NCBI GenBank assembly: GCA_020438865.1
Contig: JAGQTU010000024.1
Coordinates: 1-47,858 of the forward strand
From: Mycobacterium sp.
Lineage (GTDB): Bacteria > Actinomycetota > Actinomycetes > Mycobacteriales > Mycobacteriaceae
Length of the DNA stretch: 47,858 nt
Direction: 5' to 3'
The position numbers were made by a program, and so were the translations under genes. Positions 20,131-33,892 of the stretch are shown piece after piece. The notes under the pieces were generated by a model that saw only the letters and a list, made by a program, of their open reading frames with translations, was not told the origin of the DNA and searched no databases. Numbering within the stretch: the stretch's first letter is position 1; every line of letters begins with the position of its first letter.

Positions 20131-20784
20131 GTCGGGCAGCGCCGCCAGCAGCTCGTCGGCCGAGGCGTCCCAGTGGTTCAGGTTCACCGCCGTCGTGAGC
20201 GGACGTCGCCGCACTGGACCGTGGCGGCCCTTCGGCCAGCCGACGACGACATGCCCGGCGATCAGCCAGTCCGCCGGCACCCCGACCGCATCCCGCAGCA
20301 GCTGTTCGCCGCCATAGGAGGCCCAGCCGGTCGGGCACGCGCCGAGTCCCTGAGCTCGCGCGGCCAACAGGAAGTTCTGCATCGCCGGGAAGATCGAGCC
20401 GCCGAGCAGCAGTTCCGATGCTGTCGGATAGTGCTTCTGCGCGAACAGCACCGAGGTGAATTCCCCCGCGCGGTCGTGCAATTCGTAGGTGGCCCGGTTG
20501 TTGCGGGCCTGCCTGCCGACGTCGTCGGCGGCCGGGCGCGCCATTCCGTAGACCGGTTCGATGACGGCCAGCGCGCGGGCCGCGGCCTCGGCGACGACGG
20601 CCCGCTGTTCGGGTGAGCGCAGCACGATGAACCGCCACCCCTGTGCGTTGGCGCCGGACGGCGCCCAGGCCGCGGCCTGCAGACACCGGCTCAGCGTCAG
20701 GTCGTCGACCGGTTCGTCGGTGAAGCGCCGAATGGTGCGGGCGGTGGACAGCACGTCCCAGAGGTCGTTGCTCGGTGCCCTCAT
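20113..20784 (-). CDS. Nitroreductase-family flavoprotein
   Basis: A 223-residue FMN-binding nitroreductase. The phosphate-binding start (TARTIRRFTDEPVDD), the SGANAQGWRFIVLRS motif (typical PSxxNxQxW) and a C-terminal QNFLLAARAQGLGACPTG / VVVGWPKGR segment are present. It would reduce nitro compounds, quinones or flavins with NAD(P)H; the true substrate is unknown. Its start overlaps the diguanylate cyclase stop by ATGA, so the two are translationally coupled. Confidence 0.88.
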   Translation of the reverse strand: MRAPSNDLWDVLSTARTIRRFTDEPVDDLTLSRCLQAAAWAPSGANAQGWRFIVLRSPEQRAVVAEAAARALAVIEPVYGMARPAADDVGRQARNNRATYELHDRAGEFTSVLFAQKHYPTASELLLGGSIFPAMQNFLLAARAQGLGACPTGWASYGGEQLLRDAVGVPADWLIAGHVVVGWPKGRHGPVRRRPLTTAVNLNHWDASADELLAALPDSPVDQ

Positions 20785-22052
20785 CCGACCGGTGTATCAG
20801 ACCCATCGACATCGGTGCGCAACCGGGCCTTGTGGCGGTACATGTTCGCATCGGCCCGGCGTACCAGCTCGTCGACGTCGTCGCGCCCACAGGTCCAGCC
20901 CACCGACGCGGTCAGCCGAACCGGTGCGCCGCCGGCGTCGTAGTCGCCGGTCAGTCCGGTGCAGATATCGTGCGCCACGCCCTCGACGTGGGACTCCTGT
21001 GCGTCTGGCACCAGTATCACGAATTCGTCGCCGCCCAATCGGTACACCGAGTTCGGTTCGGCCACAGCGCTTTTCAGGCGGCCGGCGACCTGGGTCAGCA
21101 CCGCGTCGCCGACGGCGTGCCCGTGGGCGTCGTTGACCTGCTTGAACCCGTCCATGTCCAAGAAGACCACCCCGACCGGGGCGCCGGCCCGGGTGGCGCG
21201 ATGTGCCTCGATGCGGGTGATCAGCTCGTTGCGGTTGTTCAGACCGGTCAGCGGATCGGTGACCGCGCGGCGCGCGAGTTCGGCCTCGGCCTTGCGGCGC
21301 GCGGTCACGTCCTGGAACTGGGCGACCACCATGTCCTCGGTGTCGTGGGTCCCGCGGACCAGCACCGCGCTGATCTGCATCCAGATCGTCGACCCGTCCC
21401 GGCGGAGGTAGCGCCGCTCGGCGCAGAACTGCGGGACCCTGCCCTCCACCAGCGCGCGGTAGTCGACCGCGCTGGCGCCGAGGTCGTCGGGATGCAGGTG
21501 GTCGCGGTAGTTGACGCCGCTGAGCTCTTCCTGGGTGTAGCCGATCAGTTCGCACAGCGCCGGGTTGACGTACAGGGCGCGGCCCGCCGGGGTCAGGGTC
21601 GCCATCCCGAACGGGGCGTTGGCCATGCTGATCTCGAACAGCCGCACCGCCTCGTCGCGGGCCCGCTCGGCCTGGACTCGCCCGGTCACATCGGTGACCT
21701 GGACGTAGAAGCCCCGAACGCGTCCGTCGACGATGTCGGGAACATAGGACGTCTGGGTGAATCGGGTGCGGCCGTGGACGTCGACGAGGGTGCGTTCGAA
21801 CAACTGCTCCTCGCCGGCCAGGGCGCCTTCGACGTAGGGCCGGGTCAGTTCGTATGACTCGGCCCCCAGCAGGTCGCGCAGGTGCCGGCCGCGGATCTCG
21901 GCCGGGCCGAGCCCGAAGTACTCCCGGTGGGCCTCGTTGGCGATGACGTTGTGCAGATCGGCGTCCCAGTAGGCGATCAGCGCGGGCAGCCGGTCGATGA
22001 GCAGGCGCAGCCGGCGAGTCTCCTCACCGTCGTCGGGTCTCTCGTCGAGCAC
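20781..22052 (-). CDS. PAS-PAS-GGDEF diguanylate cyclase
   Basis: A 423-residue cytoplasmic sensor protein: two PAS domains (about residues 15-125 and 135-255) followed by a GGDEF domain that makes cyclic di-GMP. The first PAS holds IDRLPALIAYWDADLHNVIAN; the second ends with a PAC segment (AQFQDVTARRKAEAEL). The active-site motif RLGGDEF is intact at about residues 338-344, and the DPLTGLNNRNEL start is typical. The product-inhibition RxxD site five residues before GGDEF is absent (AEPN in place of RxxD). The GTG at 22052 has GGGGGA seven nt upstream; a TTG at 22094 is an alternative. It lies upstream of the coupled nitroreductase. Confidence 0.9.
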   Translation of the reverse strand: MLDERPDDGEETRRLRLLIDRLPALIAYWDADLHNVIANEAHREYFGLGPAEIRGRHLRDLLGAESYELTRPYVEGALAGEEQLFERTLVDVHGRTRFTQTSYVPDIVDGRVRGFYVQVTDVTGRVQAERARDEAVRLFEISMANAPFGMATLTPAGRALYVNPALCELIGYTQEELSGVNYRDHLHPDDLGASAVDYRALVEGRVPQFCAERRYLRRDGSTIWMQISAVLVRGTHDTEDMVVAQFQDVTARRKAEAELARRAVTDPLTGLNNRNELITRIEAHRATRAGAPVGVVFLDMDGFKQVNDAHGHAVGDAVLTQVAGRLKSAVAEPNSVYRLGGDEFVILVPDAQESHVEGVAHDICTGLTGDYDAGGAPVRLTASVGWTCGRDDVDELVRRADANMYRHKARLRTDVDGSDTPVG

Positions 22053-22128
22053 TGTCGAATCCCCCGGATCGCCGAAGTGATCACCGCGGCTCAATTTAAC
22101 ACCGCGGTCAGTACCGGGGCGGAGCGGC

Positions 22129-22134
22129 TAGATT
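22129..22134 (+). promoter_or_regulatory. -10 box of the yaaA gene
   Basis: TAGATT, six nt before the GTG at 22141, consistent with a leaderless transcript. Confidence 0.5.
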
Positions 22135-22140
22135 CTCGTC

Positions 22141-22887
22141 GTGATCGTGCTGCTTCCACCGTCGGAGACCAAACGCCCCGGCGGCGACGGGCCGCCCCTG
22201 CGGCTGGCCGACCTGTCCACGCCGGCCCTGCGGCCGCTGCGCGCCGAGCTCGTCGACGAACTCGTCGCGCTGGCCGCTGACCGCGAGGCCAGCAGGCGGG
22301 CCCTGGGTCTCTCACCGTCGCAGGACGCCGAGATCGAACGCAACGCCGCGCTGTGCAGCGCCCCCACCCTGCCCGCGCTGCACCGCTACACCGGGGTGCT
22401 GTTCGACGCCCTGGACGCGGGCTCGCTGCGCGGCACCGCGGCCGCCCGTGCCCGGGCTCGGCTGGCCATCGGGTCGGCGCTGTTCGGCCTGCTGCGCGCC
22501 GACGACCCGGTGCCGGCCTACCGGCTCTCGGCGACGTCGAAACTTCCCGGCCGCCCCACGCTGGCCAGCCGGTGGCGGCCGCTGCTGGAACCCGTGCTCG
22601 CCGAGTTGGCGGCGGCCGAACTCGTCGTCGACCTGCGGTCGGGATCGTATGCGGCGCTGGGCCGGGTTCCCGGCGCGGTCGGGGTCGACGTGATCGCGGA
22701 ACGCCCCGACGGACGGCGCAGCGTGGTCACCCACTTCAACAAGGCGCACAAGGGCCGGCTGGCCCGGGCGCTGGCAAGCACCCGATCCGAACCCGGCGAC
22801 GCGGCCGCGGTGGCGGCGGTGGCCCGCCGGGCCGGGATGCGGGTGGAGCGCGACGGCGACGAGCTGACCGTCATCGTCACCGGGTGA
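22141..22887 (+). CDS. yaaA: Peroxide stress protein YaaA/DUF328 family
   Basis: A 248-residue YaaA-family protein. The family start (MIVLLPPSETKRPGG) and a core of YTGVLFDALD, RLSATSKLP, VVDLRSGSYAAL and VVTHFNKAHKGRLARAL are clear. E. coli YaaA lowers free iron during peroxide stress and binds DNA; the same role here is inferred. It has no visible link to its neighbours apart from the shared upstream region with the diguanylate cyclase gene. Confidence 0.85.
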   Translation: MIVLLPPSETKRPGGDGPPLRLADLSTPALRPLRAELVDELVALAADREASRRALGLSPSQDAEIERNAALCSAPTLPALHRYTGVLFDALDAGSLRGTAAARARARLAIGSALFGLLRADDPVPAYRLSATSKLPGRPTLASRWRPLLEPVLAELAAAELVVDLRSGSYAALGRVPGAVGVDVIAERPDGRRSVVTHFNKAHKGRLARALASTRSEPGDAAAVAAVARRAGMRVERDGDELTVIVTG

Positions 22888-22939
22888 CGACGTGATGCTC
22901 GTCGTGCCGGCGTGCGGCGGCTTTGACAGGATGGTCCGC

Positions 22940-23530
22940 GTGACCAACCGCTGGCAGCGTTCCGACGCGCCGCGCGGCGACGACTACGACGCGCGGTGGC
23001 GGTCACTGGCGGCCGCCGGTCAGAACGTCCACGGCGAGGCCGATCTGGTCGAGGCGCTGCTGCGCGAGTCCGGCGGCGCCTCGGTGCTCGACGCCGGCTG
23101 TGGAACCGGCCGGGTGGCAATCGAACTGGCCGACCGCGGGTTGGCCGTCACGGGTGTGGACGCCGACCTGGGGATGCTGGGTGCGGCGCGCGCGAAGGCG
23201 CCCCGGCTCCGCTGGATCGAAGCCGACCTCGCCGACCTCGGGGCGACGCTGCCCCAGCGTTTCGACCTGATCCTGTTGGCCGGCAACGTGATGATCTTCC
23301 TCGAACCGGGATCCGAGGCGCGGGTGCTCAGCGCGCTCGCCGGCCGGCTGACCCCGGACGGGCTGCTGGTCGCCGGTTTCGCCATCCGGACCCGCCGGCT
23401 GTCCCTGGAGCGGTACGACGAACTGGCCGCCGGGGCCGGTCTGGCGCCGGTCGCGCGGTGGGCGACCTGGGACCGCGAGCCCTTCGCCGGCGGCGACTAC
23501 GCGGTCTCGGTGCACCGCCTGGCCCGGTGA
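22940..23530 (+). CDS. Class I SAM-dependent methyltransferase
   Basis: A 196-residue Rossmann-fold methyltransferase. Motif I is VLDAGCGTGRVAIELADRG, the acidic residue ending strand 2 is in VTGVDADLGML, and motif IV is FDLILLAGNVMIFL. Substrate unknown. The GTG at 22940 was chosen because it starts the conserved TNRWQRSDAPRGDDYDARW region, with a CAGGAT -10-like hexamer about nine nt upstream; a start at 22892 would be longer. It follows yaaA by 52 nt on the same strand. Confidence 0.8.
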   Translation: MTNRWQRSDAPRGDDYDARWRSLAAAGQNVHGEADLVEALLRESGGASVLDAGCGTGRVAIELADRGLAVTGVDADLGMLGAARAKAPRLRWIEADLADLGATLPQRFDLILLAGNVMIFLEPGSEARVLSALAGRLTPDGLLVAGFAIRTRRLSLERYDELAAGAGLAPVARWATWDREPFAGGDYAVSVHRLAR

Positions 23531-23632
23531 CGAAAATGACGTGGCCGCAATTTTCTGTCCGGGGGGCGCTGGTGGGGGGCGTAGCCGTTCGCTAGGCTCG
23601 TTACCCAGGCGCAACGCTGAGGGGAATCGTCG

Positions 23633-24763
23633 ATGAGGGTGCGTTCGGGAGGCCGTCGCCCCGACCAGTACTACGCGCTGACCTCGTTGCTCACCGCCCG
23701 CGACGGACAGGCGTTCGCCTCCCGCGTCATCGCCGCGGTGATCTTCTTTCTCGGCCTGGCCCCCGTGCTGGCGATCAGGGCCGTCGCCCCGCGGTGGGCG
23801 GGCGCCCAGTACGTGTTCGCCGGCGCGTTCGCCTGCTGCGCCGTGATGGCGCTGCTCTGGTTCCGGCATCGGTGGCCGACCAGAACCGAGTCGGCCGTCC
23901 TGGTCGGCGTCGGCACGCTCGCGATCGCCGCGTGCAGTGTGGTGCCGGCCAACCCCGTCTTCGGCGTGCTCGGCGCGATGACGTTCAGCCTGATCACCGG
24001 CTACACCGCGATGTTCCACACCCTGCGACTGCTGGCGCTGACGTCGACCGTGGTCGCCGCGACGACGGCGTACCTCGCGGTCCGCGTGGCCGCCCAGAGT
24101 GTCGGCCTGGCGTTGGCCGTCGTCATCCTGATCACCCTGGTCAACATCTTCGCCGCATTCACCGCCCGGCTGGTGGTCCTGCTCAGTGGCTCGCAGGACG
24201 GCGCGGGGGCGGTGGAACCGCTGACCGGCCTGCTCAACCGGGAGGCGTTCTACGACCAGACGGCGACACTGCTCGCCTCGCGCAGCCGTGAAGACGACCG
24301 CTATCTCGTCATCGTGGTGGTGAGCATCGACAGCTTCGCCGCGATGGTCAGCATGGTCGGCGCCAAGGGTGGCGCCCGTGCCAAGTTGGCCGCCGGCCGG
24401 GCCCTGCGGGAGACGGTGCGCCGCGACGCGGTCGTCGGGCACATCGGCGAGGCGGAGTACGTGATCGCCGACTCGTTCACGACGGCGGACGCATCCCCGC
24501 TGGTCGAGCGGGTGCGCGGCGCGATCGCGGCGGCCCCGGCCGGGATGACGGCGAGCATCGGTGTGGTGAGCACCCCGCTGAGTCCGCTGGTCGCCCGGCC
24601 GCCCCAGGATCTGCTGGACAAGATCGTCGGGATCGCGACCGCGGCGATGCGGGAGGCCCGCCTCGCGGGCGGCAATCAGGCCAGGTATGTCCGCGACCTC
24701 GATCTCCAGCTCGCCGACGAGCCCGACCCGAACGCCGACCCCGAACCCGACTCGGCGATTTGA
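23633..24763 (+). CDS. Membrane protein with degenerate GGDEF domain
   Basis: A 376-residue protein: about six hydrophobic helices (residues 31-185), then a GGDEF-like domain from EPLTGLLNREAFYDQ to MREARLAGGNQARYV. The catalytic GGDEF motif is replaced by GEAEY (residues 272-276), and the metal/base Asp region reads VVSIDSFA, so cyclic di-GMP synthesis is unlikely. Such degenerate domains can act as nucleotide sensors or partners. The tail is acidic (DEPDPNADPEPDS). GAGGGGAA lies eight nt before the ATG. An intact PAS-GGDEF enzyme is encoded 1.6 kb upstream. Confidence 0.82.
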   Translation: MRVRSGGRRPDQYYALTSLLTARDGQAFASRVIAAVIFFLGLAPVLAIRAVAPRWAGAQYVFAGAFACCAVMALLWFRHRWPTRTESAVLVGVGTLAIAACSVVPANPVFGVLGAMTFSLITGYTAMFHTLRLLALTSTVVAATTAYLAVRVAAQSVGLALAVVILITLVNIFAAFTARLVVLLSGSQDGAGAVEPLTGLLNREAFYDQTATLLASRSREDDRYLVIVVVSIDSFAAMVSMVGAKGGARAKLAAGRALRETVRRDAVVGHIGEAEYVIADSFTTADASPLVERVRGAIAAAPAGMTASIGVVSTPLSPLVARPPQDLLDKIVGIATAAMREARLAGGNQARYVRDLDLQLADEPDPNADPEPDSAI

Positions 24764-27099: not shown

Positions 27100-28233
27100 T
27101 CAGTAGTCGGACTCTGCGGCCAGGATTTCGGCGAGGAAGGCGTCCGGATGCGGGTCGGCCAGTCGCCGCCGCGCGAACCGCCGCACCCGGTCGCGGGCTT
27201 CGGGACCCTCGTCGACCTGCGCGCCCACCGTCACGGTGGCGTTCGACCAGTCGGTGTCCCACACGACCCGCGCCGCGGCGGGCTGGTCGTCCGCGCCCAG
27301 GATCGCCAGCGTGGCGCGACCGGATCCATCCAGGATGCCGGCTGCCCGAAATGCGTTGTGCTGCAGCGTTACCGGAATGCCGATCGGTGATCCGGGGCCG
27401 ACGACGTCAGCGCGAACGAGGGCTACCGGGGCGCTGTCGGCCACGGCGATGATCCAGTCGACGGTGTTCTCGGCGGCGTCGAACACCGCGCCGGGCACCG
27501 CGCCCCAGGCCATCGAGGTCGCGCCGCGCTCGATGACCGCGGCGGGCTCCGGTCCCCCGCCCCGGCCGGCCGCCAGCGCGTAGTCGTCGCAGCTCGCGGC
27601 CGCCGGGGTGACCGCTGTGCCGGCCCCCGTGTCGGCCAGGGCGTCGGCCAGCTCCGCCCAGCCCGGGCCCTCGACACCGAACTCGTCGGCCAACTCGGCG
27701 CACCGGCGCACCAGTTCGGCCACCCGCGGGTCGCCCAGCAGCAGCTGGGTCCGCAACTCCCCGGCATGCGGGGCCAGCAACGCCGCGATGTCGGAGTCCA
27801 GGGTGTCGTCGCCGAAGAACTCATCGGCGCCGGCCGTCGCCACCGCGATCTCGGCGTCCAGCACCGCCGGGTTGAGTCCGGCGACGCCGTCCCGGATGCT
27901 GGCCGGCCACCACCGGCGCAACCAGTGCCCGAGCGCCAGCCTGCGCAGCGGAACCAGCGACCCGGTGCGCAGTTCGACTCCGGATAGCTCGACCTCCCCC
28001 TCCGCTGCGGCGGTGGTGGCCGCGGCCAGCACTCGATGGCCGTCCTCGCCGACCACGCGCCACAGCCAGTCCGCGCGCGCCGGGTCGGTGAAGGTGATCT
28101 GCGGGGGTGCGTCCGCGGCCTCGTCGACCGTCCAGGCCAGCACCGCGCCGTCCAGCTCGAGGGCCGCGGCCAGCGGGATCGGCGCGACGCTCGGCCCGGT
28201 CAGCCACAGGCCGGATTCGCTGACCAGTCTCAT
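27100..28233 (-). CDS. Unrecognised protein, second gene of a coupled pair near the CHAT locus
   Basis: A 377-residue, acidic, soluble protein with no family I recognise and no signal peptide or membrane segment. The N-terminal third is beta-rich (WLTGPSVAPIPLAAALELDG, LWRVVGEDGHRVLAAATT); the middle is helical (LAPHAGELRTQLLLGDPRVAELVRRCAELADEFGV), and the C-terminal part again beta-rich (TVDWIIAVADSAPVALVRAD, ATVTVGAQV) before a final helix rich in Arg. The ATG at 28233 overlaps the stop of the upstream 429-residue gene (ATGA), so the two are coupled and probably act together. Possible link to the TPR-CHAT genes 2 kb upstream is discussed under findings. Confidence 0.72.
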   Translation of the reverse strand: MRLVSESGLWLTGPSVAPIPLAAALELDGAVLAWTVDEAADAPPQITFTDPARADWLWRVVGEDGHRVLAAATTAAAEGEVELSGVELRTGSLVPLRRLALGHWLRRWWPASIRDGVAGLNPAVLDAEIAVATAGADEFFGDDTLDSDIAALLAPHAGELRTQLLLGDPRVAELVRRCAELADEFGVEGPGWAELADALADTGAGTAVTPAAASCDDYALAAGRGGGPEPAAVIERGATSMAWGAVPGAVFDAAENTVDWIIAVADSAPVALVRADVVGPGSPIGIPVTLQHNAFRAAGILDGSGRATLAILGADDQPAAARVVWDTDWSNATVTVGAQVDEGPEARDRVRRFARRRLADPHPDAFLAEILAAESDY

Positions 28234-29519
28234 TGCGCCACCTGCACTTCCAGCATTGCCTTGATCCGCTGCCGATGGTCCAGGCTCACCGAGCGCGCCA
28301 CCCCCTCCAGCAGGGCCCGCACGTCGTCGACGTCGGAGCAGGGCTCCTGCCACACGTCGCGGCCGTGCAGCCGGGCCCACAGCCGGCTCAGGTACGGCCG
28401 GGCGAACGCGGCGAGGTCCTGCACTACCTGCTGCTGACGGGGGTGGATCGGCTCGGCACCGGCCAGCGCGCGGCGGGCGTGCAGCACGTAGGCCTCCTTG
28501 CGCAGCCGCGCCTGGATGATGCCGGCCAGTTGATACCGGGCGACGGCGCGCTCGTCGAGGGGCGCCAATTCCCGGGCCACCTCGATGCCCGCCAGCAGCG
28601 TGGCCTGTTTGTCCTCGCCGAGGAAACCCCATGGCGCGCTGGCCCGGTCGACCTCCTCGGCGCACAGCAGTGGTACGTCGGGCAACTCGTCGCGGTCCAG
28701 GGCACGGCGCAGCGTGGCCCGAACCCGTTCGACGACGCTGCGATCCAGCGGCCGGTCGCCGCCGGCCGCACCTGAGACCGGCGGCGGCCGCAGCGGAAGG
28801 GTGTCGGCCAGCCCCAGGTCGACCACCGACCAGGGCAGCGGCGGGCCGCCGGCCGTCCGGGCCAGCGCGCCGAGGTTGTACGGGGCGGCGTCGGCGACGA
28901 GCGCGGTCCAGACCCGCTGGCGGGCAACGCTTTCCCGGTGGCCGTCAGCCGGGCCGAGCACCGTTGTCAGACCGGCGAAGAACGGGCCGGTGATCTCCGT
29001 GCCCGCTCGCACGTCGGCCCAGCTGCCCTGCAGCTGGCGCGACAGCCTGGCCAGCACCTGCGGGTCGGCCAGGTAGTGGTTGAGCGCCTCGATGGTGGTG
29101 CGGCCACGATCGTGGTGCACGTCGTGCAGCACGGCGGCCGCTGTCGCAGGACCACCCTGATCGGGAGCGCCCTTGGTGACGGCCAGTTCGAAACACACCG
29201 GGAAGTAGAGGTCCTGGGCGTTACCGGTGGTGACGCGCTGCCTGCGCCGTTCCAGCTTCATGAGCCCGAACCACGCTGCAGTGCAACGCAATTGCTCGGC
29301 ACTGTCCACGATCACCCCGAACATCTCAGTGGCGACCTCGGCGCTGACGAACGGCGCGGAGTAGGCGGGGTTGGCCCGCAACCGCAGCACCAACGGGTCG
29401 ATGATCCGCTTCACCGTCCGGCGCAGCGGTCCGCCGTCGTCACCGCTGAGCACCTCCACGCCGGGACCGATGGCCCGCCAGGCGCGGTCGATCACCGCCC
29501 GACGGGGTTGGCCGCTCAT
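28230..29519 (-). CDS. Unrecognised mostly helical protein, first gene of the coupled pair
   Basis: A 429-residue soluble protein without a family I recognise. It is largely alpha-helical. Visible regions: a basic N-terminus (RRAVIDRAWRAIGPGVEV), a middle with VLHDVHHDRGRTTIEALNHY that carries several histidines but not a clear HD or zinc motif, and a helical C-terminus (AVARYQLAGIIQARLRKEAY, QQQVVQDLAAFARPYLSRLW). The ATG at 29519 lies six nt after a TATCCT -10 box, so it is probably leaderless. It is coupled to the 377-residue gene by ATGA, and divergent from the 217-residue membrane protein gene (81 nt apart). Confidence 0.72.
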   Translation of the reverse strand: MSGQPRRAVIDRAWRAIGPGVEVLSGDDGGPLRRTVKRIIDPLVLRLRANPAYSAPFVSAEVATEMFGVIVDSAEQLRCTAAWFGLMKLERRRQRVTTGNAQDLYFPVCFELAVTKGAPDQGGPATAAAVLHDVHHDRGRTTIEALNHYLADPQVLARLSRQLQGSWADVRAGTEITGPFFAGLTTVLGPADGHRESVARQRVWTALVADAAPYNLGALARTAGGPPLPWSVVDLGLADTLPLRPPPVSGAAGGDRPLDRSVVERVRATLRRALDRDELPDVPLLCAEEVDRASAPWGFLGEDKQATLLAGIEVARELAPLDERAVARYQLAGIIQARLRKEAYVLHARRALAGAEPIHPRQQQVVQDLAAFARPYLSRLWARLHGRDVWQEPCSDVDDVRALLEGVARSVSLDHRQRIKAMLEVQVAQ

Positions 29520-29525
29520 CCGGAC

Positions 29526-29531
29526 AGGATA
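29526..29531 (-). promoter_or_regulatory. -10 box of the unrecognised gene pair
   Basis: TATCCT on the minus strand six nt before the ATG at 29519; indicates a leaderless operon start and supports that start codon. Confidence 0.5.
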
Positions 29532-29600
29532 AGCGGGCGCCGACCGCGGGAGCGGCGAAGTTGGGTTCGGTAGCGCCGGGCGCGGCGCAGGCTGCCCGTC

Positions 29601-30254
29601 ATGTCTGATGTCTACCTGGGCGCCATCGCCGCCGTCTCCGTCCTCGCCCTCGCCGCGATCGTCGTCGCAGCCGGCCTTGGCGGCCAACCCGCACACCGGC
29701 GCCGGGGACCGTCGGCCTGCCGGTCGGTGGCGGTCGGCACCGTTCAGGCGGTCGCCGACTCGGAGAACCCGCTGGTGGTGGTCGAGGTGGAAAGCGTCGA
29801 CGGCCAGCGGTTCACCGGGCGGTTGTGCCATCGCATGGGCGACCCGGCGGTGACGGCGCTGCGGCCCGGGCTGATCCTGCTGGTCTCGTTCGACCCGCAG
29901 GACCGCGACCGGCTTTCGCTGGCCGACGATGTGGTGGCCGTCCGCGCGGCCGTCGGGCAGACCCTGGTCCGCCAGGGCGTGCTGACCGATGCGGAACTGG
30001 ACCTGGTCCGGCACGGTACCCGCTCTTCGGGGGTGGTCACCGGCATGCGGGCGGGCGGCTACGCGGGTGCGGACCTGCGCGAGGTCGAACTCGACGTGAT
30101 GGTCAGCAGGCGCGGCGGCGGTCAGTTCCCGGCCCATCAGACCACGGTGGTCCCGGTCGCCGAACTGCCGCGGATGGCGCCCGGCAGTGTCATCGACGCC
30201 TACTACCGCCCGGATGACGAGTCGACGGTCGCGGTGTGTGTACCGCCGGCATGA
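29601..30254 (+). CDS. Membrane-anchored protein with two beta-barrel repeats
   Basis: A 217-residue protein with one N-terminal transmembrane helix (YLGAIAAVSVLALAAIVVAA) and two similar beta-rich domains. The first starts SVAVGTVQAVADSENPLVVV and the second GTRSSGVVTGMRAGGYAGAD. The second ends in the pattern VVPVAELPRMAPGSVIDAYY-RPDDESTVAV, a layout (conversion of a gene product by a 'GxxxxGxV' barrel and a 'L-x-PG-x-V-x-D-P' end) seen in many actinobacterial proteins, of unknown role. It lies between the CHAT gene (convergent) and the 429-residue gene (divergent), inside the CHAT block. Confidence 0.7.
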   Translation: MSDVYLGAIAAVSVLALAAIVVAAGLGGQPAHRRRGPSACRSVAVGTVQAVADSENPLVVVEVESVDGQRFTGRLCHRMGDPAVTALRPGLILLVSFDPQDRDRLSLADDVVAVRAAVGQTLVRQGVLTDAELDLVRHGTRSSGVVTGMRAGGYAGADLREVELDVMVSRRGGGQFPAHQTTVVPVAELPRMAPGSVIDAYYRPDDESTVAVCVPPA

Positions 30255-30259
30255 TGCGT

Positions 30260-31612
30260 TCACCGGGCACCGTCCACGCTGAACGTCGCCAGCGCCGCCC
30301 AGTACAGCGGGCTGGCGCCGGTGTCGCCGGCCCGCCAGCGGCGCATCTGGGCGCGCTGCCACCGGTTGACCGCGAGCGCGGCGTCGTCGGCCTGGTGCGC
30401 GTCGTCGACGGCGATGACCACATCTGCCATCGGGTCGCCGATCGATGAGGTGAACCGGCGATACCCGGCCGTGGTGGGCAGCGGCCACAGCGTCGCGGTG
30501 ACCAGTTGGCTGCCGCACAGCACCATCGCCGCCACCAGACCGGTGGCCTCGTCGAACTGGTAGTCACCGCCCGAGCCGCACGCGAGCAGCGCGACCCGCG
30601 GCGGCATCGGCAGCTGCGCGGACATCAGGTCGGCGGCCAGCAGCGGCCGATGATCGCCAACCGGCTCGGCGCCGCCGGGCAGCGCGGAGGTGCAGGCGAG
30701 GTGGATCGCGGCCCGGTCGGCGTAACCGTGGGCACGGTCGGCGGCGCTGGCGTGCCCGACGTAGAGCAGCCGGCTCGGGGCCCGCTTCAGGAGGGCGGCC
30801 AGCCAGGTGCGGTCGGCATCGGCGCGCCGGAACAGGTCCACCGCCGAGTCGACCTCCGGCAGCACCGGGTGCCGTGCCAGCACCGTGGCGAAGTGCCCGG
30901 ACAGCCGGGTCTCGGCCGACGGGCGGCCCAGCACCGAACCCAGCGGCGAATCCGGGCGTTGCCCGGGAACCCTCGGGTCGAGCACCAGAAGCGGTGCGGC
31001 ACTTCGCCGCTCGGACCAAACGGCCGGATCCCTCGGGGCATGCGCGATGTTGGGTGGCACCGCCATCAGCACGTCGGCCAACTCCATCAGCCGGTGGCCC
31101 TCGGTCAGGGCGGCGATGTCGGCGAGCTGCCACGGGATCCGGGCGGCCGTGGTGCCCCTGGTGGTGATCGCCGCCGCCCGGGCGGCGATCAACTCCTCGC
31201 GGCTGGGGCCGGCCAGGGGCACCGCCAGCAGGCCCCATGGGATGCGGGCCAGCCGGGCGCTCGGCGAGATGTACAGCAGCGGGCGGGGATCGGAGACACA
31301 CTCGCCCAGCAGTTGCCAGGCGGGCGCGGAGATCAGCAGCACCCCGAGGATGTAGGCCAGCGTCAACTCGCGTTCGGGGGTGGCGAACGGCCCGGTGGTC
31401 AGCGCCCGGTTCAGCGCGTCGGCCAGTGTCTCGGTGCCCTCGGGGTCGGGCAGCGCGCCCTGCAGTTCTTCGATGGCGGCCAGCAGGATCGGCTCCTCGA
31501 CCACCCAGGTGACCGTGCGGGCGGGTTCGCCGACCACCCGCAGGCTGCCGTAGGTCGCGACGCCGAGGTCGGCGAACCGCAGCACCAGCGTGGTGGACGA
31601 CGGTGCGGTCAT
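30260..31612 (-). CDS. CHAT-domain (caspase-like) protease
   Basis: A 450-residue protein whose second half is a CHAT domain, the clan-CD caspase/separase-related cysteine protease fold. Core motifs in order: LLYISPSARLARIPWGLLAVPLAG (108-134), the catalytic-His strand LLYVGHASA with H287, the catalytic-Cys strand VALLACGSG with C345, and EATGLVAAMVLCGSQLVTATLWPLP followed by SPLYWAALATFSVDG. The His/Cys dyad is intact. The N-terminal 100 residues are not recognised. The ATG at 31612 overlaps the TPR-like gene stop by ATGA, so both are made together. CHAT proteases in bacteria can act in conflict or immune systems (for example TPR-CHAT with gasdermin or with type III CRISPR), but no such partner was recognised here. 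Confidence 0.88.
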   Translation of the reverse strand: MTAPSSTTLVLRFADLGVATYGSLRVVGEPARTVTWVVEEPILLAAIEELQGALPDPEGTETLADALNRALTTGPFATPERELTLAYILGVLLISAPAWQLLGECVSDPRPLLYISPSARLARIPWGLLAVPLAGPSREELIAARAAAITTRGTTAARIPWQLADIAALTEGHRLMELADVLMAVPPNIAHAPRDPAVWSERRSAAPLLVLDPRVPGQRPDSPLGSVLGRPSAETRLSGHFATVLARHPVLPEVDSAVDLFRRADADRTWLAALLKRAPSRLLYVGHASAADRAHGYADRAAIHLACTSALPGGAEPVGDHRPLLAADLMSAQLPMPPRVALLACGSGGDYQFDEATGLVAAMVLCGSQLVTATLWPLPTTAGYRRFTSSIGDPMADVVIAVDDAHQADDAALAVNRWQRAQMRRWRAGDTGASPLYWAALATFSVDGAR

Positions 31613-33297
31613 GGCCATGTCGACCAGGCCGGGTCGTCGGAGGTCACGGCCTGGCCGTAGCGGCTCTGCGCGAGCCGGCGGTAGTGCTCGAGGATCGGCG
31701 CGCGGGTCGGGTCCATCTGCAACGGCGGAAGTGGGCCCAGGGTGGTCAGGGTGAGACCGTCCACCGACTCCCCGCCTGCCGCGAGCGCCTCCTCGGCCAC
31801 CGTGTCGGCCACCACCGTGGTGCCGACTCCCCCATCCCAGGTCGACGCCTCGTCGAGCGGTTCATGGGCGAAAGTGCCTCGGGCGCTGTGATATTCGATG
31901 AGCTCGCTGAGTAGCTCGGTGTTCTCCCACTCCCAGGCCACCGAGAAGGCGCCGGCCAGCATCCGGCCCGACACGTGCGCGGCCCACCGCCAGCGGGAGT
32001 CGGCGTCGAGCATCGAGTAGCGGACCGAGTCGATGGCCAGGGCGGCCGGGATCTTCAGCTCTGCGGCCCGCTCCAGCTTCGCCATCGCGCTGCGGTGTTG
32101 CTCGCTGCCGGGTTCGACATGCATCACACCCAGCGCTGCCGCCTGCCGGGCCTCGGTGGCCTGGAAGTCGTCGGTCGGTTCGCTGATCCCGTCGAAACCC
32201 ATGTCCGCCAGGGCGTCTGCGCGCCAGACGTTGCCGAGGTGATCGTCGAGCCGGGCATATTGCAGCCAGCTCGAGCGCGGCCACTGGTCCAACAGTTCGC
32301 GGGCCTGGGCCACCTGCTCGACCGCCTCGGCGAAGCGGCCGCGGAACACCGATATCCAGCTGCGCTGCAGCAGGATCCGATGAATGTGCAGCGGCTTGCC
32401 CAGCTCACGCCAGTGTCGTTCGGCATGCGACCAGGATTCGTCGGCGGCCTCGAGCATGCCGACGCCCAGCCGGGTGAGCCCGAAGTAGAGCCAGGAGCGC
32501 GAGACGTCATGGGCGCGGTTGCCCTCCGCGATCACCGGGTACGCGCCGCCGACGAGTCGTTCGGTGGTCTGGTGGTCGCCCCGGATCCAGCTCGCCGCCG
32601 CGGTCTCGAGTTCGGCTCGCGCACAATACAGTTTCCAGTCGCGGCGCTGCGCCCGCGCGGCCGCGCGCTGCAGCCACTGCTCCCCCTCGGCCAGCCGGCC
32701 GGTCTCGACACAGAACCGGCCATAGGCCAACCCGCCTGCGACCAGCAACTGGTCGGTGGAATCCGAGGTGTCGGTCAGGTGATCGATGACCGGAATGATG
32801 GTGCGCCACAGCGCCGCCGCGCGGGCGTGCAGATCGTCGTCGCACAGCGCCGTCGCGCACAGCACACCGGCCAGCGCCGCAAGATGCTGTTGGTCGGCAA
32901 CGAGATCTGGAAATCGCCGGGCGGATTCGTCGTCCTGCAGGTCGGCCAGCTCGGCCGCGGCCGCTTCGTGCTCGCCCCGCGCCGCGGCCAGGCCGACCCG
33001 CAGGAACCGGGCCCGCAGCCGGTACCGGGACGTCATGTGGTCGGCCTCGGATCCGGGCAGGGCGTCCGCGTACGCGGCGAGGCAATCGTCGATGCGGCGC
33101 ACGCACTCCTCGGTGCCGTCGTAGGCGGTGCGGTTGAGGTAGAGCTCACCGAGCAGGGCGAAGACCTCCAGGGCGAGATCGTCCCGGTCCTCCCGTTCGA
33201 CCTCGGGCAGGACGGACAACAGGATGTCCTTGGCCGCCTCTTCCTTGGCGGCCAGGATGAGCTGGCGAGCGCGCTCCAACTCGCCGGGGATCGACAC
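31609..33297 (-). CDS. TPR-like helical-repeat protein coupled to the CHAT protease
   Basis: A 562-residue, nearly all-helical protein with repeated helix pairs of the TPR/TPR-like kind, for example LALEVFALLGELYLNRTAYD, LLVAGGLAYGRFCVETGRLA, LQRAAARAQRRDWKLYCARA and EQVAQARELLDQWPRSSW. The repeats occupy about residues 5-440. The final 120 residues are less regular and end with LEHYRRLAQSRYGQAVTSDD. It is likely a scaffold or sensor for the CHAT protease, whose start overlaps its stop by 4 nt. The GTG at 33297 was chosen because TATGAT lies six nt upstream, pointing to a leaderless transcript; codons upstream are low-complexity. Confidence 0.8.
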   Translation of the reverse strand: MSIPGELERARQLILAAKEEAAKDILLSVLPEVEREDRDDLALEVFALLGELYLNRTAYDGTEECVRRIDDCLAAYADALPGSEADHMTSRYRLRARFLRVGLAAARGEHEAAAAELADLQDDESARRFPDLVADQQHLAALAGVLCATALCDDDLHARAAALWRTIIPVIDHLTDTSDSTDQLLVAGGLAYGRFCVETGRLAEGEQWLQRAAARAQRRDWKLYCARAELETAAASWIRGDHQTTERLVGGAYPVIAEGNRAHDVSRSWLYFGLTRLGVGMLEAADESWSHAERHWRELGKPLHIHRILLQRSWISVFRGRFAEAVEQVAQARELLDQWPRSSWLQYARLDDHLGNVWRADALADMGFDGISEPTDDFQATEARQAAALGVMHVEPGSEQHRSAMAKLERAAELKIPAALAIDSVRYSMLDADSRWRWAAHVSGRMLAGAFSVAWEWENTELLSELIEYHSARGTFAHEPLDEASTWDGGVGTTVVADTVAEEALAAGGESVDGLTLTTLGPLPPLQMDPTRAPILEHYRRLAQSRYGQAVTSDDPAWSTWP

Positions 33298-33303
33298 GGC
33301 TGA

Positions 33304-33309
33304 ATCATA
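33304..33309 (-). promoter_or_regulatory. -10 box of the TPR-CHAT operon
   Basis: TATGAT on the minus strand six nt before the GTG at 33297, the same spacing as in the 429-residue gene promoter. Confidence 0.5.
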
Positions 33310-33394: not shown

Positions 33395-33892
33395 TCACTT
33401 GCAGGTGACCGTGATCTCGAACTTCTTCGTGATCATCCCGGCCATCGGGTTCTTCAGGTCCGCGCCGGCCGCCTCGCCGGTGATGGTGTACGTACTACCG
33501 TCCACCTTCACGTCGGCAGATCCGGTCTTCATTCCCATGCTGTCGCTCACCGCCAGTGCGTTGCCATCCACGACCATGGCCAGGGAGGTCACCTTCGGCG
33601 TCGACTCGTCGGTCATGACCACACCGAGGCCCTGCTGACCACCGATCGCCCCACTGGCGATGTTGATGTTGCCGCCCTGCTTCACGCACGTCACCGTGCT
33701 GGTGTCCAGGCCGGGCAGGTCGTTTCCCTCGACCTTCACCGAGGTCGTTCCCCCGCTTGCCACCGTGGCACTGGCGGACGAGGATCCGGTCGCCGATGCG
33801 GCGCCCTTGCCGCTGCTGTTGTTGTCGGAACAGCCCATCAGCAGCATGCTGCAGCCGACCACGCCGACACCGACCGCGAGAACTCGCTTCAC
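33395..33892 (-). CDS. LpqH-like (19 kDa antigen family) lipoprotein
   Basis: A 165-residue predicted lipoprotein of the mycobacterial LpqH family. Signal peptide with lipobox LLMGC (C21), a Ser/Ala/Gly/Thr-rich linker (residues 22-48), and the compact folded domain with paired cysteines (VTCVKQGG and the C-terminal ITVTCK) and GSTYTITGEAAG. M. tuberculosis LpqH is a surface lipoprotein that signals through TLR2; the exact role of this paralogue is unknown. The GTG at 33892 has AAGGGA seven nt upstream. Single gene, followed by a hairpin terminator. Confidence 0.87.
   Translation of the reverse strand: MKRVLAVGVGVVGCSMLLMGCSDNNSSGKGAASATGSSSASATVASGGTTSVKVEGNDLPGLDTSTVTCVKQGGNINIASGAIGGQQGLGVVMTDESTPKVTSLAMVVDGNALAVSDSMGMKTGSADVKVDGSTYTITGEAAGADLKNPMAGMITKKFEITVTCK

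Follow-up and report, generated by a model that had tools for sequence, protein, structure and literature searches.

A conserved actinobacterial gene set joining a TPR-CHAT protease pair with two protein families, u429 and u377

A CHAT protease gene that lies beside a TPR-like gene, a putative membrane protein gene and a coupled pair of unrecognised genes raises the question of whether these neighbours form one system and, if so, on what the protease would act. Such a locus is found in contig JAGQTU010000024.1 of the Mycobacterium sp. assembly GCA_020438865.1 (4.96 Mb, 366 contigs), whose whole analysed stretch of 47,858 nucleotides is here called the window. An initial annotation had joined five genes into one candidate conflict or regulated-proteolysis system, and the five open reading frames (ORFs) were located exactly where it had placed them. 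On the minus strand, the gene of a TPR-like helical protein (31609..33297, GTG start) opens the first operon and is overlapped by the CHAT protease gene (30260..31618). The second minus-strand operon starts with u429 (28230..29519; 429 aa, a family of unknown kind), which overlaps u377 (27100..28233; 377 aa) by ATGA. Between the operons, a putative membrane-anchored protein is encoded on the plus strand (29601..30254). It was found that u429, u377, TPR and CHAT form a conserved actinobacterial gene set.

Outside Mycobacterium, 34 u429 loci were examined (L150-L158, L180-L199, L204-L208). Among the genomes with a u429 match outside the genus, 23 of 27 from the same family were examined and seven of nine from the class were fetched, the weak G175 and G267 being left out. 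From the plasmid collection, four of the six records with u429 were examined and four of the nine with CHAT were fetched as CHAT matches. All four genes were present in 30 of the 34 loci, with u429 interrupted in two of the 30 (L187, L206); L155, L182 and L196 were cut by contig ends. A reading of L196 as a locus devoid of CHAT proved wrong, as the end of CHAT sits at the contig edge. The genes were unsplit and in the order u429-u377-TPR-CHAT in 25 of these 30 loci, from Nocardia, Streptomyces and other actinobacteria, with gene overlap or close spacing in the seven loci whose starts were listed. In Streptomyces sp. NBC_01237 (L158), TPR and CHAT were fused in a single 978-residue ORF; L157 belongs to Nocardia farcinica, and L207 and L208 are other Streptomyces loci, the TPR and CHAT genes being separate.

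Within Mycobacterium, 110 CHAT loci were compared, comprising the window, 80 named loci and 29 further loci of the genus; some species are possibly present twice, 30 loci had only about 1.5 kb of flank, and one named metagenome-assembled genome (MAG) is labelled only as Actinomycetota. The closest named CHAT locus was that of a Mycobacterium sp. MAG (97%). TPR stood beside CHAT in all 110 loci and u429 in 108, and u377 was present in 78 of the 80 named loci; L015 and L027, where it was missed, stop at a contig edge. The two loci that lacked u429 were L015, again at its contig edge, and L080, a decayed locus. The latter is from Mycobacterium lepraemurium, where the block seems to have decayed, the CHAT match being partial and u429 unmatched.

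When 148 Mycobacterium genomes were searched, CHAT was matched in 96 and u429 in 99. Both were present in 95 genomes and neither in 48, with u429 alone in four (G005, G104, G105, G129) and CHAT alone in one (G003), an agreement of 143/148. The CHAT match in G003 (1.5e-5) was not recovered by a more diverse CHAT profile, which found no CHAT in the four u429-only genomes either. Remnants were detected in these four: the end of u429 with the greater part of u377 in G104, fragments of TPR, u429 and u377 in G105, and fragments of u429 and u377 in G129. G005 (84% complete) carries u429 and most of u377 up to the contig end, and the 2.2 kb preceding u429 contain no CHAT. Given this agreement and the remnants in the exceptions, the block is therefore nearly always retained or lost as a unit; G005 is the exception, for which incompleteness may or may not account. 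The block occupies one chromosomal place in Mycobacterium, in about two thirds of the sampled genomes, and the mean column identity within the genus was 68% for CHAT, 68% for TPR, 75% for u429 and 63% for u377.

The conserved neighbourhood on which the initial annotation had staked its proposal was thus recovered for four of its five genes, which form one operon in other genera and are jointly present or absent. The membrane gene did not follow them. The pairs are also split in the sister genus g333 (L180, L181, L183, L206), where, as in Mycobacterium, a gene related to the membrane gene stands between them. In g351, however, the end of CHAT comes immediately before u429 at the contig edge, with no space for a membrane gene, and none separates the pairs in the unsplit loci. 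As its position between the operons is confined to Mycobacterium and g333, it was regarded as a lineage-specific neighbour and not as a core component. Its protein gave a DUF3592 match only below the Pfam threshold.

The CHAT protein of the window matched the Pfam CHAT model (PF12770) at 2.1e-9, with 37.7 bits against a cut-off of 24. Among the five block proteins it alone exceeded a Pfam cut-off, and scans of the five against NCBIfam and PADLOC gave no match (PADLOC 0/5 at E up to 1). The dyad that had been read as H287/C345 is intact; this numbering counts from the second ATG (31612) and corresponds to H289/C347 from the first (31618). The predicted ATGA overlap of the TPR stop and the CHAT start likewise holds with the start at 31612. 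The dyad was checked by sequence alignment instead of a structural model, and both residues withstood the check: neither the histidine nor the cysteine varied across an alignment of 24 sequences or across a more diverse set of 16. Both motifs were present in 109/109 CHAT ORFs. By profile and dyad the protein is a member of the CHAT family, with a predicted peptidase activity. The TPR label of the window protein is drawn from its relatives in L158 and L204, which exceed the Pfam TPR cut-off; the window protein itself stays below it (best E 0.56). The Pfam CHAT model did not report the fused L158 protein at E up to 0.01; a CHAT family profile built without L158 recovered it at 3.1e-144. Profile searches of PDB sequences with CHAT and TPR found no relative, and nothing useful was obtained there for the block proteins.

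Each minus-strand operon had been described as having a -10-like box at a distance of exactly 6 nt from its start codon, and this arrangement is kept across the named mycobacterial loci. In the window the boxes are TATGAT (33304..33309, minus strand), 6 nt 5' of the TPR GTG, and TATCCT (29526..29531, minus strand), 6 nt 5' of the u429 ATG. Of the 78 named mycobacterial loci with a called TPR start, 76 have a TANNNT exactly 6 nt 5' of it. For u429 the called starts fitted in only 8/77, most of them being mis-called. The starts were rescanned, considering in-frame starts within 90 nt and allowing TANNNT 5-8 nt upstream. A box was then detected in 77/78 loci for TPR (at 6 nt in 76, as TATGAT in 71) and in 76/77 for u429 (at 6 nt in 74). 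In the same rescan u377 (0/74), CHAT (0/80), the lipoprotein gene lpp (0/74) and the membrane gene (0/23) gave no box, and an arginase-family gene showed one in 9/11, with 0 at 6 nt. In leaderless mycobacterial mRNAs a distance of about 6-7 nt separates the -10 box from the start codon. Because the boxes sit at this distance, we infer that both operon mRNAs are leaderless. They would be of the same kind as other leaderless mycobacterial transcripts, the feature of this locus being the conservation of the spacing in both operons across the named mycobacterial loci.

The two proteins u429 and u377 were modelled with AlphaFold2. For u429 a helical model of low confidence was obtained, with a predicted local distance difference test (pLDDT) score of 50.9, too poor for a fold search. 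The u377 model, built from 26 closely related input sequences, had a mean pLDDT of 76.1 and showed short N-terminal strands, a helical bundle, strands at residues 258-310 and C-terminal helices. Its fold matches were weak (VIA list, middling Z), an Ig-like sandwich at about 248-340 and a helical part at about 88-209 being predicted. The pLDDT fell below 50 at residues 205-226 and 240-256. Within the first of these stretches, a linker predicted to be disordered, lies a highly conserved motif, DYALAAG (residues 217-223; codons at 27565..27585, minus strand). In 13 diverse u377 sequences its mean majority fraction was 0.90, compared with 0.49 in the other residues of 205-256 and an overall value of 0.51, and YALAAG was the best hexamer of the protein, tied with RWWPAS. 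The motif was present in 69/74 mycobacterial u377 ORFs; the five misses were two with DYALAAA, one with DYSLAAG by alignment (L021), one without ALAA (L030) and one mis-called ORF (L050). Outside the genus, [YFL]ALAAG was found in 27/29 loci (22 with Y, one with F, four with L) and was absent in L196 and L197.

What, then, would the protease do? On balance these observations favour a self-contained four-gene module of regulated proteolysis, in which a TPR-controlled CHAT protease acts with u429-u377 as its cognate partner complex and u377 is the most likely substrate. The TPR protein would hold and control the CHAT cysteine protease, and the translationally coupled u429-u377 pair would form the partner complex. 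When TPR senses a signal, CHAT may cut the low-confidence linker with the conserved YALAAG, which joins the two predicted folded parts of u377. The protein would be split, and the activity of u429 and u377 would presumably change. That u377 is the substrate is plausible, and we infer that the linker is the cut site; both were placed by analogy with Craspase, in which a TPR-CHAT protease cuts a partner protein. The observed basis of the proposal is the gene composition, order, coupling and fusion, the joint presence and loss, the intact dyad, the promoter spacing and the conserved motif. The TPR-CHAT fusion of L158 also speaks for it, as does a C14 caspase gene that overlaps a divergent u429-u377 pair in genome G935 (L197). 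The u377 of L196, which reads YAAVAG even though its genome carries CHAT, counts against the exactness of the motif. The reading names both a candidate substrate and a candidate cut site, which an in-vitro cleavage assay could address.

One alternative is the chance neighbourhood of two unrelated operons, which would fit the separate promoter-like boxes of Mycobacterium, where the operons look like separate transcription units. It is highly improbable in view of the contiguous single operon in other genera and the joint presence or absence. The CHAT protein might instead lack catalytic activity and serve with the other three in a structural or signalling complex, the association of the genes being the sole outcome so far; the dyad and motifs conserved throughout are unlike an idle enzyme, and this explanation was considered quite unlikely.

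The principal rival is a role in anti-phage immunity or abortive infection, in which TPR would sense an invasion and CHAT would activate u429/u377 as a toxic effector. It draws on the pairing of CHAT with TPR known from Craspase (PMC9729208, PMC10028731) and on the patchy distribution outside Mycobacterium. A u429 match was obtained in 41 of 221 genomes of the family (14 from the genus itself; 7/31 genera), 20 of 246 of the class (11 from the genus, two matches being weak) and 11 of 396 of the phylum (10 from the genus). Copies also occur on large Streptomyces replicons, Rhodococcus plasmids carry related CHAT genes in the vicinity of weak NYN-domain genes, and one variant lies near an E1-JAB gene. 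Against this stand the single chromosomal place, the presence in most sampled mycobacteria and the high conservation there, together with the lack of any PADLOC match in the five proteins. Moreover, eight of nine further window proteins scanned with Pfam gave matches, none of them to a defence family. The conflict role suggested by the initial annotation is thus a hypothetical one, the mycobacterial block having its fixed place beside a gene of the 19-kDa-lipoprotein type, and immunity was judged possible but rather doubtful.

Among known systems, Craspase (Csx29, Cas7-11, Csx30) resembles the module in its TPR region and CHAT, and in having a partner protein as substrate, as is proposed here. 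One Craspase TPR-CHAT ortholog cuts Csx30 at AIAA/SSEK (the slash marking the cut), which resembles the proposed YALAA/G of u377; two other orthologs cut L/D and M/K, and single changes around the AIAA/SSEK site had hardly any effect (PMC11106740). In the window, by contrast, TPR and CHAT are separate genes, one chain being found only in L158. No Cas7-11/gRAMP was detected when 14 window proteins were searched for Pfam domains and Csx30 was not seen in the neighbourhood, so that the locus is not a Craspase in its surroundings. In the prokaryotic VMAP, iSTAND and EACC1-caspase conflict systems, many of which come from actinobacteria, peptidases of the caspase superfamily occur together with regulated assembly (PMC7159879). 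The module shares with them the bacterial and actinobacterial setting and the peptidase superfamily; the word CHAT is absent from the main text of that paper. The same 14 proteins gave no Pfam match to MoxR, vWA or VMAP, and the neighbourhood is not that of a VMAP ternary system. The gene set was not found in the open-licence literature searched. It was rated a TPR-CHAT protease system with two partner families new to it. It would add a conserved TPR-CHAT module, chromosomally stable in Mycobacterium, and two protein families (u429, u377) without a match to any Pfam, NCBIfam or PADLOC model.

The proposed cut at YALAA/G might also expose an ssrA-like degron. ARAGORN tags ended in ALAA in 29/30 genomes. 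The tmRNA tag of the window genome reads ADSNQRDYALA, followed by a run of N, and in five other Mycobacterium genomes (5/5 with a full tag) the tag ends in QRDYALAA. In Mycobacterium the DYALAA of the motif is thus equal to the end of the host tag; in other genera the identity is less exact. The residue before ALAA, in u377 and tag respectively, is F and F in G329, Y and F in G369 (L151) and L and F in genus g40, the host tag not always being followed. The DYALAA pattern had one match in the window genome, in u377 (27569-27585), and 0 in the reversed control. The mean was 1.97 matches (control 0.44) in the 95 genomes with the system, with none in three and one in 19, and 1.35 (control 0.54) in the 48 genomes without it. 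Of 12 matches in G004, G011, G029, G049 and G098, whose coordinates were compared by hand, five fell in tmRNA, five in u377 and two elsewhere; the u377 match of G098 was assigned by its position just beyond u429. Since the comparison was made after the motif had been seen, these figures carry no clean p-value. Cryptic ssrA-like degrons are bared by proteolysis in RseA, LexA and RsiW. There the cut creates an Ala-Ala C-terminus for ClpXP, to which the u377 case is linked by sequence resemblance only. A CHAT cut after YALAA would leave a tmRNA-like C-terminal tag, ClpXP would destroy the N-terminal half of u377, and u429 would be freed or disarmed. This outcome is considered unlikely; it would also account for the conservation of a CHAT site. 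If true, a caspase-like enzyme would direct a selected protein to degradation by the ribosome-rescue route, linking caspase-like proteases with ClpXP.

Several loci depart from the common arrangement. The compound locus of G935 (L197, L249) holds the C14 caspase gene, u429-like and u377-like genes, two further unknown genes and the E1-JAB gene and, about 12 kb on, a second Y-like gene, CHAT and a TPR gene. In G374 (L204), CHAT, u429-like and u377-like genes stand in line, with a protein kinase-TPR fusion gene on the opposite strand. An FHA-FtsK/SpoIIIE gene adjoins that block, and a 381-aa gene taken at one point for an NYN nuclease was dropped, as it had no Pfam support. In two of the three g345 loci (L188 and L189, not L187), genes that by eye are ahpC- and ahpF-like lie between TPR and CHAT. 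On the Rhodococcus plasmids (L159, L160) the related CHAT follows two unknown genes (473-539 aa); TPR genes and the below-cut-off NYN-domain genes lie nearby. One of the two unknown genes, Y, aligned co-linearly with u377 in a profile comparison, though weakly (hhalign E 1.7e-4, probability 49%), and gave nothing with another u377 alignment; it is thus a lead only. The other, X, gave no profile match to u429.

In the window, the 19-kDa-lipoprotein-antigen family gene lies at 33395-33892, directly upstream of TPR. A gene of this type was present in 75 of the 110 CHAT loci, at least 30 of the 110 being too short to reveal it. Near the block, at 20781-24763, lie genes for two GGDEF proteins and a peroxide-stress gene of the YaaA type.
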